NCBI GenBank assembly: GCA_033065855.1
Contig: JAVXUO010000926.1
Span: forward strand, 186,001 to 250,000
From: Escallonia rubra
Lineage: Eukaryota; Streptophyta; Magnoliopsida; Escalloniales; Escalloniaceae
Direction: 5' to 3'
DNA: 64,000 nucleotides
Shown: in pieces, positions 6,101 to 53,815 of the stretch
Layout of the letters: each line of letters begins with the position of its first letter
Position numbering within the stretch: the first letter of the stretch is position 1
Made by a program: the position numbers and the translations under genes
The notes under the pieces: model-generated
Database searches by the model: none
What the model was told of the DNA's origin: nothing
What the model saw: only the letters and a program-made list of their open reading frames with translations

Positions 6101-6465
6101 GCGCGCCTGCGCCTTGCGCCTAGGCTCCAGGGACCTTTTGCGCCTTAGGTGCGCCTGCGCCTTTAATAACACTGGATGAGCCAGAGATGGAAGCTGAAAT
6201 ATGCAGGGAGGAGAATAATGATGGAGATGGAGGTGGAGGTGAAGAGGACGATGAAGAAGATGACACAATCGATGTAGATTGAGCACTTGATCGACTTATT
6301 ACTGATTTCAATTATTTCCTTTATTTCCTATTCGTATGATTTTGTAAGACTTAATTTCTTACTATGTTGGATTTAACGTTTAAGTATGACTTGTATTTGA
6401 ATTCCTTATTTTGGTAGTTTTTCATTATTATTTGTTATTTTAGATTATGGAATGTATTTGATATT

Positions 6466-6514
<49 letters not shown>

Positions 6515-8094
6515 CTGATCCGTTGAGAGCATGGACAAAATCGTAGTTCTCCCAACCGCGCTCCGACCGCCCATCCTGAAATATGGACGGGCCAGATCGC
6601 GCCTTTTTCGAAAGCTGTCAGTCGTCCGCCATACAGTATGGCGGACGTGTTTTTTTTACATTTTTACCCCTCCGCCCGTCCGCTAAACTGTCCGCCATAT
6701 AGTATAGCGGACGTACATAGGGCCGAAAAAAAAACTAAGTGTTGGGGATGCTTCTTTCTGCTTGACTGTCCGCCATATAGTATAGCGGACGTAAATAGGG
6801 CCGAAAAAAAAACTTTAAGCGTTGGGGATGCTTCTTTCTGCTTGACTGTCCGCTATATAGTATAGCGGACGTACTTTAATGTTCTGACACACTCTCTCTC
6901 TCCCATCAATTTCTGACTCTCTCTCTCTCTCCTCTTAAATACCCATCCGCTACATAATGTAGCGGATGATGGACATGAAAGTAAAAGTGTTTCACACATC
7001 TGTCCAAACTTCTTGCTTTCAATCATCTCGCAAGGCTCGGCAAGTGTTTCACGCTCGAAGTTTCGCTCTTCAGGATGAAAGTGACGAAGAAGTGATCCGA
7101 GAACCAACTAGACGGGCTCCTTGTCAGGCTACACCTCACGTGAAACTCATCCAATCGCACCATCACGTTTGCCAGTCGCTCACCCACGACCACACCTCCG
7201 TCAATCGGTCAATCGCAGACCCACGGCCTACAGCGGCCACCAACAAAACTCAGATCATAAAAAATGATCTGGGTTTCAATTGGGTCTCAAAATTTCAAAT
7301 GAGTCTCAAAATTTTAATTGGGTCTCAGTTTTCGCAAACCCAAAATGGGGTTGCCACAGCAGGTGGATTGCTGCCGGAAGCGGAGCTGCCGTCCTCGGTC
7401 CTATGTACGGAAGCGGAGCTGCCTTCCTCCGTCGTCGCCAGAAGCGGAGCTGCCGTCCTCGGTCGTCGCCGGAAGCGGAGCTGCCTTCCTCGGCCGTCGC
7501 CGAAAGCGGAGCTGCCTTCCTCGGCCGTCGCCGGAAGCGGAGCTGCTTTCCTCGGCCGTCGCCGGAAGCGGAGCTGCCTTCCTCCGTCGTCGCCGGAAGC
7601 AAAGCTGCCTTCCTCTGTCGTCGCGCGCCAAGAGGCTTCATTTTCCCTTCGGTTTCTAGCATGGACGAGAGAGAGAGAGTCAGAGAGTTAATTAGAGAAA
7701 GAGAAAATGATGATGAGAGAGAGGAGAGAGAAAGGAAAAATGTCAGAACATTAAATGAGGAAAATGAGAGAGAAAGAGGAAAAAGTCATGAGATTAGTCC
7801 GCTACATAATGTAGCGGATGGAACATGACCGTATTTTTGTCAAAAAACCATCCGCTACATTATGTAGCGGACGAACTTAAAAAAAACGTAAAAAAAAAAA
7901 TTGGACAGTCCGCGATACAATGTAGCGGACGGGCGGAGGGGTAAAAATGTAAAAAAACCCGTCCGCCATATTGTATGGCGGACGACTGACAGCTTTTGAA
8001 AAAGGCGCGATCTGGCCCGTCCATATTTCGGGATGGACGGTCAGATCGCGTTTGCAAGATCTCCTATTTTGCCCACGCTCTCAACGGATCAGCT

Positions 8095-8142
<48 letters not shown>

Positions 8143-11100
8143 AAAATATTAAAAAAATAGCGGTGTCCTGCGGTGTCCAAAATCCAATTTTTTGGAAATT
8201 GCGGTGTCCGGTGTCCCCGTCGGTGTCGGTTTCCGACACCGTGTCCGTGCTACCTATATATATATATATGTATATATACATACACATATATATATATATA
8301 TACATACATATACATACATATATACATACGTATACATACATATATATATATATATACATACATACGTATACATACATATATATATAGATACACACACACA
8401 CACTCTTATTTATGTGAATAATATGGTCTTTATATGTGTAACAAAGATTAATCCTTCTAACCATATTAGTTAGAAAGTTTGTTAAATCGGCGGGCTGTTT
8501 TGGAATTATTAAAATTTTATAGCTGAATATAGTATTGCTTGTTTGGTTTTGGGTATTACTAGTATTTCTAAAAATGTATGGGATTAGTTTGGATAATAAG
8601 CTAATAAGTGGGTTCCAAATAAAGGCATTGGAAACTAAAAAGTCATGTAGCAGCAGTAACATCGAGAAGAGAGAGAGTCTTCTTCCAAGACAATAATAGA
8701 GGCAGTAACATTGAGAAGGGAGACAGTCTTCCTCTTCTTCCAAGACAATAACAGGGGCTGTCCTTTTCCAAGACGAGCCATCAGGTACCTCCTCCTTCTC
8801 CTTTATTCTTCTTCTTGTTTATTTTTCTTCTTCTTCTTTCTTTTTCTTCTTCGGTAATCACACGATGATGTCCATAGCCGGACACAGTCGTCGCCGACTT
8901 CCAGTCGCTGCCTCTTTCTTCTTCTTCTTCTTTTTCTTTTCTTCTTCTTCCTCTCGCTTCCCAAGGTCGCCAATCATTATTCTGACCCAGATAACTTGTT
9001 CCCAGATTTGACTTTGAGCCCTCAAGCACCCGGTGCGTGTCCAAGCCGTGTCCCTGCCATGTCAGAGCCGCACCCGAAGGTCAGCAAATTAATTGAAAAA
9101 TTAAATTATTATGGACACGCACCCCGTGCACACCCAGCCGCACCCGCAACCGATCTGCACCCAGTGCTGGTGCGTCGGCCGAAACGCCGCACCTGTGCTT
9201 CATAGCCCAAACCCCAATTGAAACCCAGTTCATAGGCAGGTCTTATGATTCAACAATCTCCCCTCTGTCCTTGCCTTCTCAGTAAGGGGCAATCTTAACC
9301 TTGTCAGAACTCCCTCTTTAACCGACGTGGCCACACCTGTCTAAACACCACTACAACTCGATTTGCACCTAATCAATAATTTTCCCTTCCTTTTCTGTTG
9401 TCTATCACTCTATCAACTCAATGTATGGACCTCATGACATGCCTTTTACCCGGTCAAAATAACTGCTGCTTCAATAGCGACCTGTGAATTCTCGACTTTC
9501 GCTACCATCCCAAACAAAAAGTGGAAAAAAGTAGTGATTTCGAGCAACAGAAAGCAGTTAGAAAACTAAACAGAAGACGTTACTTATTTGTGCTGAATAT
9601 CAGTTCCGCCTCTTACACGGATACTCTAGGCAGTTCACAAAGGCCAAGAGGTGAATATCAGTTACGGCCAATATAATCCAAGCTTGAGCTACCCAAACAG
9701 TCAGCCAGTAGCAGGTAGGTGGATCCAAATTTTAGACTTAAGGAATCCAACAGACCTAAAATTGTGCTTTAATATGGACTGACCATCCCAGGAAACAAAT
9801 CCTTAGAACTTCAGGGATTCATGATTTATCATTACTTATCTGTTTTAGAAGTTTTAAACTAGAGATAGATAAGAAGTAAACAGCTCAAGAATTTAGCAAA
9901 GGGACTGGCAAACAGAGCAATAGCGCAAGAAACAAAACAATAGTATCAGCTCTGAGGCTCTTACTTTGCGAAAGGACTCGGGCCCCATCTGCTTTTCCAA
10001 CATTTGGAGGACTGCTACCTGGTAGATAATATAAAAGACAGTCACAAGTTTTATATGATCTTCAAAACAAATAAACGGAACTACTGTCAAAAAAAGAAAA
10101 GAAGAAATGACAAGAAAAAAGAATAAATAAAAAAGCAGAAGATCAACTTACAGACTTCCATGATCTTATTTTGCCGTATAAGCCAATGCACTGGGTTCCA
10201 TACAAATCCTTAGATGAAGCAGAGGAGCTTAAGGCAGTCGCAACACTATCATCTGCTTTGCAAACAGCACAGTTCGCCTGCACATAATCAAAGAACTTGT
10301 TAGAAAAGTGAGGGCAAATCTACACCATAAGCAAGAATATTGGAAGCTTCACCAGCAGTACACTTCTATGTAATCTACAGTTAAGAAAGAGATGGAATTA
10401 GATATGTGCAGCCTTAAAAGGAAACAGAACCTTGTACCGCCTGTAACGTGCTTCATTATTTCCCAGAAACTGCTTTATAAATGAATCAGTTAGAAATCCA
10501 GCAAGACCATCCAACAACCACTCTGCCAATAAACATCAAAATAAATGCATCAGAATAAATAGCCATTCACCACTAGTGGCGATAAATATGAAATATCACA
10601 TGAATATTCTGAAAGTTTACCATCACTTGGTGCCTCTGCAGTGATATACACTCCAAACCATTGTCTTGCAAGGGCATATGCAAGTTTAATTCTCGTCTCT
10701 ATGGTCTGTTAAAACAATCCATCAGCACAACCATAAAGCTAGCAATGAACTGTGAACAAATACCACTAAAAAGAAGGAAAGATCTAAATAAAACCAATAA
10801 CTATAAAACAAATAAGAACTTTCTGACGTACAAAAGCTCATAAATACTACATTTAACATAATCATTAGTATGACATGGAGATTTAAAGGATGCACAACTT
10901 TCCAAATCATGACAGTTCTTTCTTCAACTTATTTCATGGTTTAGCTTCTAGTAAGGCCTTTCAAGAGGAGAAAAATCATGGAGGCAGAGAAAAGCTTAAG
11001 TGGACAGAAGCGAGCAGAGGAAGGCTGGCCAGAGAATATTGCTTTGCGTGAAAGTGATCTGTCATGTATAAACAAAGAGTAGGATGCTGATGAGTGGCTG

Positions 11101-39620: not shown

Positions 39621-39694
<74 letters not shown>
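39621..39694. repeat. (TA)n(GT)n(TA)n microsatellite
   Basis: Left flank of the 221-bp MITE; the right flank continues as poly-C, CA and TA runs to about 39975. Confidence 0.9.
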
Positions 39695-39695
<1 letters not shown>

Positions 39696-39916
39696 GGAGC
39701 TGATCCGTTGATAGTACTAGCAAGTTGCTAGCGCTGTTTGGCCGTCCGCTACATAATGTAGCGGACGATAATTTACCGTCCGCTACATTATTGTAGCGGA
39801 CGGTGAAAAAATTCGCTGTTGTGGCGCGCGATCTGGACGTCCATTCTCGCCCGTGGACGGCCAGATCGCGCTAGCAACTTGGGTTAAGTTGCTAGCGCTA
39901 TCATTTTATCAGCTCC
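39696..39916. mobile_element. 221-bp palindrome MITE, relative of the 6510-8097 element
   Basis: It begins GGAGCTGATCCGTTGATAG and ends, inverted, with GGAGCTGATAAAATGATAG, between TA/CA microsatellites. It contains GTCCGCTACATAATGTAGCG plus GAC as a palindrome (from about 39744), a second near-palindrome at about 39778-39801, and the GCGATCTGG..CGTCCAT hairpin arm shared with the 1.6-kb element. It has no coding capacity. Confidence 0.82.
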
Positions 39917-39924
39917 CCCCCCCC

Positions 39925-39977
<53 letters not shown>

Positions 39978-42800: not shown

Positions 42801-44078
42801 TGAAACCAATAAAATAACCCTAGAGGGGGGGTGAATAGGGTTTTAAGACTACTTTAAAAATTAACAAATAACAAACCTCAATCTCAATAACACAAATAAG
42901 CAAACAACCAATCTCAACACAAATGTAAAACAATAATGTAAAGAGAGAAGGGTTTAGAGATACTTGACAATGAGAATTAAATGGTTCGGCTTGATATACC
43001 CACAAGCCTACGTCCACCCCTTCAAGGAAGTCCCTTGAAAGGCCCTAGAATCCACTAGTATGATCTTCCTTACGGGTCAAGATCGAACCTCTTACAATCC
43101 CTTGATGCTATGCCCACATCAAGAACAAGCTTTGACAAACCCAAAGCTCCAAAGCTTGACAACCCCAAGTTTTGATACAAGAACCTTTCAATGAAGAAAT
43201 GTGTACAAGATTTCACTCTCAATAAGTAGATGAGTACAAGTTGAAGTACTAGAATAAGAGAGATGAGTGTATGATGACTTATGAAAGTGTATCTCTCTCT
43301 AATGTAAGCTCACAATAAATGCTCTCCTGAAAAGGATGAGAAATCAATGAAAACAAGAGAGATTTGAACAATTGCTTTGATCTTTGAGAATATGAAAGAT
43401 AAGAGAGCTTTGAATGCAATTGATGAATGAAAACTATGCCCAAGATGAGTATTTATAGAGGTGGAAATAAATATGACCGTTTGTGGTTAGGTGGAGCATT
43501 AAATGCGCCAAACGGTAAATGCAGTCGACTGCAATGCACCATTGCAGTCGACTGTAACCCAAAAGTAGCCGTTGGAAATTCAAATTTCAAACTTGCAGTC
43601 GACTGTAATCCATTGCAGTCGACTGTAATAGGCTACTGGAAGTATTGCAGTCGACTGCATTCCAATGCAGTCGACTGTAATACCTCACTGCCCAACTTGC
43701 AGTCGACTGCATTCCAATGCAGTCGACTGCATTCCTGAAAATGCAGTTTCCTTGTTTTTAAAGCATGAAAAACTTTTATGCATGCAAGGGAAACCTATGG
43801 GCAAGTTCTAGGTATACAGTCATCGTAACGATCATCTCTCTATGTCTAGTTTACAAAGACGGAAATAAAAGCATGAAAACTTCAATCGACGAATTCCCTC
43901 TTTGATGCGTTCCGTTGAGAGTCTTTGACCGTGTTGCTCGTCTAATAATCCGTTTGCATGAGTATGAGATTGTTCCTATTGCTTCATCAACTCAATGCAT
44001 GTTAGACAGCATAATCATCAATGTTAGTTATCATCAAAATCAAATATAATCCTAGGTTAAATAACCGTAGGGTTAACA
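42801..44078 (-). mobile_element. Solo LTR of a Copia (SIRE-like) element
   Basis: In minus orientation the ends are TGTTAACCCTACGG..GGTTTCA, with the 5-bp direct repeat CCAAG on both sides (42796-42800 and 44079-44083). It is the same family as the LTR at 53086-54498: both end CTAGG(G/A)TTATTTTATTGG. No internal region is attached. It holds eight CAGTCGACTG palindromes at 43520-43740. It is a fossil. Confidence 0.87.
43520..43740. repeat. Eight TGCAGTCGACTGCA-type palindromes
   Basis: GCAGTCGACTG followed by CA or TA occurs eight times, some in close pairs. Each core is a perfect 10-bp palindrome with a GTCGAC centre. Five more occur in the related LTR at about 53660-53815. Confidence 0.92.
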
Positions 44079-53659: not shown

Positions 53660-53815
53660 AAGACAGTCGACTGTAATTGAATACAGTCGACCGCATTCCC
53701 ATGCAGTCGACTGCATTGGTCAAAATTTAGTTCCAACGGCTATTTTCGAGGATAAAACTCCAACGGCTATTTTCGAGGGATTACAGTCGACTGCATTTGG
53801 AATACAGTCGACTGC
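53660..53815. repeat. Five CAGTCGACTG palindromes in the Copia LTR
   Basis: ACAGTCGACTGTAA, ACAGTCGACCGCAT, GCAGTCGACTGCAT, ACAGTCGACTGCAT and ACAGTCGACTGCAA, arranged as a cluster of three and a pair around a duplicated CCAACGGCTATTTTCGAGG. Confidence 0.9.

Follow-up and report, generated by a model that had tools for sequence, protein, structure and literature searches.

The 1,588-bp element at positions 6510 to 8097 of the Escallonia rubra window (the whole 64,000-nucleotide stretch of DNA analysed) raises the question of why a transposable element should carry nine copies of one short palindromic sequence, and by what means such an element moves. The answer that we favour, with moderate confidence, is that it is a passenger Mutator-like element moved by the transposase of longer, gene-bearing copies, and that the palindrome is the site of an element-encoded protein dimer, which acts near the ends and in regulation.

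The element, its family and its target

The non-autonomous Mutator-like element carries an identical terminus at either end and is seated in a (TA)n repeat, which flanks it at 6461-6509 on the left and at 8098-8137 on the right; these boundaries and flanks, as given in the preliminary description, were borne out by the analysis of repeats and termini. The left arm of its terminal inverted repeat (6512-6669, forward strand, 158 nt) is 87% complementary to the right arm (7938-8095, reverse strand). Its core is a 31-bp minisatellite of 8.1 units (7373-7624), and the number of units ranges from 7 to 10 across all 28 copies of the 1.6-kb type, the window element and the fetched loci taken together. 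Around this core lie nine palindromic repeats of 23 bp each, five to the left and four to the right. The arrangement is as it had been reported, but the repeats are not all perfect, since full self-complementarity (11 of 11 pairs) is found in two of the nine, at 6624-6646 and 6945-6967. The sites at 6690-6712, which lies within an approximately 80-bp tandem unit (6687-6873), and at 6768-6790 are mismatched at pairs 7 and 11, and those at 6848-6870 and 7961-7983 at pair 11. Pair 1 is mismatched at 7797-7819 and at 7850-7872, the latter site being fully complementary in 19 of the 27 other copies, and pairs 7, 9 and 11 are mismatched at 7908-7930, a form shared by 22 of the 27 other copies. One variant that had been quoted as self-complementary, CTATATAGTATAG, has a mispair adjoining its centre.

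A MITE-sized relative of 221 bp (39696-39916, forward strand) shares the terminus and the palindrome of the window element, as had been proposed. Its first palindrome (39744-39766) has the usual 23 bp, and its second (39778-39801) measures 24 bp, with 12 instead of 11 nucleotides between the outer hexamers. Since this (11, 12) pattern of spacings occurs once among the 30 MITE loci, the longer form looks private to this copy, and at least one strict palindrome is kept in 26 of the 30. The copy sits in a compound microsatellite, which reads (TA)n(GT)n(TA)n to its left (39621-39695) and (C)n(AC)n(AT)n to its right (39917-39975), so that either the repeat has been altered since the copy inserted or the insertion took place in a repeat that was mixed from the start.

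The terminus of the family is GGGAGCTGATCCGTTGA, and exact matches to the 16-nt terminus number 1,004 in forward and 1,043 in reverse orientation (2,047 in all; the genome assembly has 566 Mb in 3,222 contigs), while the reversed control gave none. The suggestion of a mobile family with a MITE relative is upheld, and the family would explain a dominant repeat in the annotation of this genome. The window element used as a query found 30 other places with more than 1,200 aligned bases each at 86-98% identity. With the 221-bp copy as the query, 40 places including the copy's own were scored at 93-100% identity over nearly its full length; both counts are lower bounds, as the search scores the best candidates only. 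Of the 28 copies of about 1.6 kb, 23 have both ends located, at a distance of 1.5-1.9 kb, and enclose 5 to 11 strict palindromes each. The sample on which the following results are based comprises 30 loci from the MITE query, 8 and a further 20 from the window-element query, and seven long copies; the loci were selected by similarity to the window elements or as convergent terminus pairs 11-13 kb apart, and the terminus scan, which tolerates up to two mismatches, misses more worn ends.

It is evident that the family has a strong preference for TA repeats. At 116 of 123 ends, the 40 bp adjoining the element on the outside contain a TA run of length 8 or more, a count that includes the two ends of the window element and one MITE end twice. 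For random places the proportion is 4.7% within these loci and 1.2% within the window. Without the window element, the seating in TA repeats that had been noted holds for 111 of 118 ends, and a minority of seven lie elsewhere or lack a TA run of 8: six are both ends of three copies outside TA repeats, and one adjoins the end of another element. Target-site duplications are unreadable inside TA repeats. Two of the three copies outside them are flanked by exact 9-bp duplications, TTGTTGTTA (L056) and TAGTTTCTT (L068), and the third (L015/L016) by one that agrees in 8 of 9 letters.

Gene-bearing long copies

The preliminary description had proposed to look for an autonomous partner sharing these ends, and coding copies of this sort do exist: seven long copies match a FAR1-MULE-SWIM transposase and a PMD-C48 gene. 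They correspond to seven convergent terminus pairs, 11.3-12.7 kb apart, picked among the 100 termini listed of the 2,047; one further pair, 19.6 kb apart on C159, is left out of this set. The inverted ends align with each other over 295-329 nt at 88-97% in all seven, a length to which the TA flank may contribute, and each one matches the transposase, the plant mobile domain (PMD) and the C48 peptidase region.

In the copy L011, a transposase frame is open over 776 codons (L011:1188-3515) with FAR1, MULE and SWIM domains (Pfam E-values 2.3e-13, 2.9e-32 for MULE PF10551, and 3.8e-4, respectively). The PMD and C48 matches (E 1.2e-48 and 8.7e-7 in L015) lie on the strand opposite the transposase gene and are convergent with it; from their order and strand we infer that they form one spliced gene, referred to here as PMD-C48. 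The frames are broken in several of the long copies. A frame of 153 codons (L011:5144-5599), which has relatives in L009, L013, L015, L017 and L021 at 85-100% identity and is thereby present in six of the seven long copies, may be a third gene that the long element carries; neither this frame nor L021:8463-8945 had a Pfam match above the cut-off.

The ends that the long copies share with the rest of the family, the domains, the duplications and the target bias are direct observations. With a MULE domain, 9-bp duplications and long terminal inverted repeats all present, the family is a member of the Mutator superfamily, and Tc1/mariner, PIF/Harbinger and Helitron elements, considered as other assignments, are rejected in view of the MULE transposase and the 9-bp duplications. 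It is very probably the transposase of the long copies that moves the window element and the MITEs: it would bind the ends of the long, 1.6-kb and 221-bp forms alike, insert them into TA repeats and leave 9-bp duplications.

The palindrome as a putative protein site

With close to 20,000 occurrences of a single symmetric site in one genome, the family constitutes a very large natural data set. Genome-wide, the pattern GTCCGC-N11-GCGGAC has 19,579 matches and the reversed pattern has 2, and all spacings from N12 to N30 combined give 245 matches against 143 for the control. The same rigidity is found in the fetched loci with the window element excluded, where GTCCGC is followed by GCGGAC within 30 bp, measured from start to start, 331 times at 17 bp and once each at 18, 24 and 27 bp. 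Given one GTCCGC in these loci, the partner hexamer is exact in 662 of 932 cases and one letter off in 191. The palindrome search required CCGC and GCGG, so that the conservation of the outer hexamers is a product of selection by the search and the evidence comes from the spacing and the inner letters. For the latter, 427 of 497 local 23-mers had their outer letters intact, the other 70 being dropped, and they fall into 87 distinct variants (174 rows when both strands are read). In these rows, A stands at position 8 in 163 and at position 10 in 172, C or T at position 9 in 159 and at position 11 in 170, and A or T at position 12 in 168, with position 7 freer. The half-site can accordingly be written GTCCGCnAYAY and the whole palindrome GTCCGCnAYAY-W-RTRTnGCGGAC.

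Stray palindromes, independent of any element, were considered and rejected. A count by eye over the first 50 listed sites placed 38 of them no more than 13 kb from an exact terminus. The other 12 belong to six loci, each of which has a terminus resembling that of the family (1-5 mismatches) within about 500 bp of a site and similarity to family elements. At L074, one of the six, this terminus points away from the palindromes and the assignment to the family is based on matches of 68-80% to family ends. This check should be read with the caveats that a 17-nt word with up to five mismatches is a loose one and that 50 of 19,579 sites form a small, non-random sample.

Rigid spacing together with a symmetric, degenerate half-site favours the site of a dimeric protein over a cruciform. 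The 23-bp palindrome would then be a putative two-fold symmetric site, made of two 11-bp half-sites at a fixed distance and bound by a homodimer, and the binder would most likely be encoded by the element itself, either as the FAR1-domain transposase or as the PMD-C48 protein. It counts against this reading that we know of no protein tied to the 23-bp motif.

The correlation between paired positions also counts against it, since selection on pairing would predict such a correlation too. Genome-wide, pair 9/15 is C-G in 5,991, T-A in 5,325, C-A in 2,630 and T-G in 2,659 sites (16,605 of the 19,579), which amounts to a phi of 0.36, with 68% of sites complementary against 50% expected. Among the distinct variants from the fetched loci, phi is 0.39 at 9/15, 0.17 at 11/13 and 0.14 at 7/17, compared with -0.07 to -0.18 for the unpaired cross-half positions tested, and across all local copies it is 0.67, 0.19 and 0.47, respectively, compared with -0.37 to -0.47. 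Mutual information among the distinct variants is highest at 9/15 (0.155) and 7/17 (0.119), the best unpaired combination reaching 0.094, and is low (0.023) at 11/13, positions that are unable to pair in a tight hairpin; across all copies 9/15 still ranks at the top and 7/17 does not.

These values would suit palindromes that form hairpins or cruciforms and whose paired form is itself under selection, a reading that we nonetheless consider very improbable. A fixed N11 spacing is not required by a hairpin, and the variation at positions 9 and 11 is confined to C and T instead of running through any letters that can pair. Moreover, mismatches at 9/15 are found in 5,289 of the 16,605 sites (32%), and the site at 7908, with its three mispairs, has the same form in most copies. 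Changes that followed insertion weigh in the same direction. Among 57 changed pairs, none is compensatory, 38 are one-sided breaks of a pair, 12 are one-sided gains and the remaining 7 go from one unpaired state to another, 2 of them by changes on both sides; these counts come from nine sites with 24-27 copies each, in which the best match per locus for a tandem site may be a neighbouring unit. The proposal that the variants stay self-complementary stands in so far as paired positions correlate, to the extent of the genome-wide phi at 9/15, but full complementarity is seen in 8 of the 87 variants, which together account for 153 of the 427 copies, and compensatory change in none of the altered pairs. 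Similarly, of the two functions that had been suggested, protein binding fits, and a cruciform fits less well in view of the fixed spacing, the variation limited to C/T and the uncompensated one-sided changes. We tentatively attribute the correlation to half-site types that change together, as a homodimer shifting its preference between a C-type and a T-type would bring about, or to shared descent.

The positions of the sites offer a further line of evidence. The palindrome is present in the long, 1.6-kb and 221-bp forms, with about 8 to 15 sites per long element, and in the seven long copies none of 90 strict sites falls within coding-like sequence, where about 39 would be expected if they were evenly spread. 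Coding-like sequence makes up 37.7 kb of the 86.0 kb of these copies and is defined by tblastn, as the parts that match any of seven frames from L011 and L015. In L011, sites occur close to either end, in the middle of the element, immediately behind the transposase frame and behind the C48 frame. Long arrays are present at some places in the genome, one of them with 13 sites at steps of 76-80 bp (C26:19755-20706).

Could the palindromes have no function at all, and simply have been spread by tandem duplication and by the copying of the element, with a symmetry that was inherited or that arose from template switching? After insertion the sites diverge about as much as their flanks (0.0151 and 0.0171), which gives no hint that selection acts on them at this stage, and tandem units evidently carry palindromes along with them. 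Template switching between the two halves would yield symmetric variants without selection, which is another point for this reading. We consider it improbable all the same, although less so than selection on the paired form. The 23-bp unit is fixed, its inner letters are nearly so across the 87 variants, and spacing variants, which should be common in the absence of constraint, are rare. The palindromes are present in elements of all three sizes, and they are absent from the coding-like DNA of seven copies, though loose constraint would also allow that. The decay of the sites is as expected of copies that have no function of their own, and the changes, of which 37 of 82 are C to T or G to A and 12 fall on the CpG positions 4, 19 and 20, would fit methylation of old copies.

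For a dimeric protein site, the placement suggests two roles. Palindromes near the ends would assist in assembling the transposition complex, and inner ones would act in regulation, perhaps in anti-silencing, with new sites arising as the palindromes multiply in tandem units. Both roles are probable, given sites near both ends, sites between or beside the convergent genes, and the avoidance of coding-like parts. Since the inner arrays exceed what the synapsis of ends needs, synapsis alone is insufficient as an explanation. Regulation or anti-silencing by the PMD-C48 protein would account for these arrays, but the sites in MITEs would then call for a different reason, and a mixed role in synapsis and regulation is our working view.

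Possible anti-silencing and known systems

The nearest functional parallel to the palindrome arrays is provided by the target arrays of VANC, the anti-silencing protein of Arabidopsis VANDAL elements. VANDAL21 and the present family are alike in combining a Mutator-type element with an accessory gene, and the VANDAL motifs, of C and T types, lie mainly in non-coding parts and are spread by the formation of tandem repeats (PMC5735166, PMC10398659, as far as the text of these papers was available). In the present family, too, a short motif of its own forms arrays, often tandem ones, in non-coding DNA (all 90 strict sites of the seven long copies avoid coding-like sequence); the motif itself is different and palindromic, a 23-bp site compared with the singly oriented YAGTATTAY of VANDAL/VANC (PMC5735166, PMC10398659). 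Further, VANC contains DUF1985 where the protein here has a PMD, and the terminal inverted repeats of VANDALs are degenerated, those of the present family long (PMC10398659).

This parallel suggests a purely regulatory alternative, namely that the palindromes are landing sites of PMD-C48, a protein that would keep the element unmethylated and thereby open to expression and transposition, the ends being recognised through the terminal repeat alone. We regard it as possible, if doubtful. The PMD and C48 matches are kept in all seven long copies, and the strict sites of these copies are exclusively non-coding and partly tandem, as in the 13-site array, with 5 to 11 sites in each 1.5-1.9-kb copy; the VANC target motifs of Arabidopsis VANDALs are likewise mainly non-coding, often tandem and of C and T types (PMC5735166, in the sections available). 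Anti-silencing by a PMD captured by a MULE has also been raised by Ikeda et al., who describe the idea as 'tempting' (PMC5418596, in the part of the paper accessible). Against this, the search for DUF1985 in the PMD-C48 accessory protein gave a match below the cut-off (E 0.038, 14.4 bits, cut-off 35.1), so that by this test the protein is not a VANC, and the VANC paper, in its accessible text, nowhere uses the term 'palindrome' (PMC5735166). Moreover, the strict sites in 26 of 30 MITE loci are something that a regulatory role confined to gene-bearing copies need not explain. A bolder variant, which we think rather unlikely, would make the family a TA-seeking Mutator transposon with its own anti-silencing, in which PMD-C48 binds the 23-bp palindrome at its roughly 20,000 places in the genome and leaves the element accessible, and MITEs with one or two sites profit. 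If PMD-C48 does bind the palindrome, a transposon would have turned the PMD class into a targeting or anti-silencing factor of its own; the host members of this class, MAIL1 and MAIN, silence transposons in Arabidopsis, according to the accessible part of PMC5418596. MULE-captured PMD-C genes of grasses and Amborella resemble the present case in that a MULE carries a plant mobile domain, and differ in that the PMD is fused to the transposase, in the text available, whereas here it lies on the opposite strand together with a C48 peptidase match (PMC5418596).

Our preferred reading, a passenger element whose palindromes serve both synapsis and regulation, concerns a kind of element that is already known. 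TA-seeking MULEs have been described as MuTAnT (PMC4486113) and as SaTar, which includes Micron (PMC5907723), and the comparisons that follow draw on the accessible portions of these papers. The MuTAnT/AutoMuTAnT elements of Medicago truncatula likewise have fold-back short forms, insertions mostly in (TA)n, 9-bp duplications outside TA and a coding partner, in their case with a Jittery-like transposase (PMC4486113). They differ in their terminus (GGGGTTTGCTAGAACA, the search mask of that paper, compared with GGGAGCTGATCCGTTGA), in their coding copy (one ORF within 4.9 kb, compared with 11.3-12.7 kb and at least two genes) and in number (218 copies, compared with 2,047 exact termini), and the portion of the paper covered mentions neither a palindrome array nor a PMD-C48 gene (PMC4486113). 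The elements described here thus lie outside the MuTAnT family proper, as judged by its terminus and its approximately 4.9-kb single-ORF copy.

SaTar elements of guayule, rice (rSaTar2, or Micron), sorghum and citrus are also microsatellite-targeted, non-autonomous MULEs with coding partners, and they often form un-nested arrays (PMC5907723); in the present family, the end of another element lies within 60 bp outside 21 of 118 ends. The coding copy of SaTar, AgS-MULE1, measures 5.3 kb with 400-bp terminal inverted repeats, and the string 'palindrom' occurs 0 times in the main text of that paper as accessed (PMC5907723). The Ac-mMITEs of pineapple are similar in their high copy number, their seating mostly in (TA)n, their relation to Mutator, their un-nested clusters and some 9- or 10-bp duplications outside TA; they differ in that a coding partner was not found there, and 'palindrom' again occurs 0 times in the accessible main text (PMC8449440).

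Overall, the impression that no described family has this design needs to be divided: TA-targeting MULEs with MITEs are established, but palindrome arrays are without mention for such elements in the accessible parts of the papers cited. In the open-access literature searched, neither palindrome arrays nor a separate PMD-C48 gene were found in TA-targeting MULEs, and it is in these two features that the family is new relative to this literature. These features bear on the question of why microsatellite-targeting MULEs choose TA repeats and on the role of their extra genes.

Other palindromic repeats occur in the window. Repeats rich in CGGTGTCC/CCGACACCG are found at 2122-2226 and 8153-8245, with short palindromes at 2210 and 8221, and the second of these repeats lies just outside the right TA repeat of the window element. 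A second type of palindrome, around TGCAGTCGACTGCA, is present in several near-copies within 210 bp (43522-43731), partly as a 52-bp tandem repeat, and once more 10 kb away at 53701-53716; these repeats possibly represent a second family with palindrome arrays.
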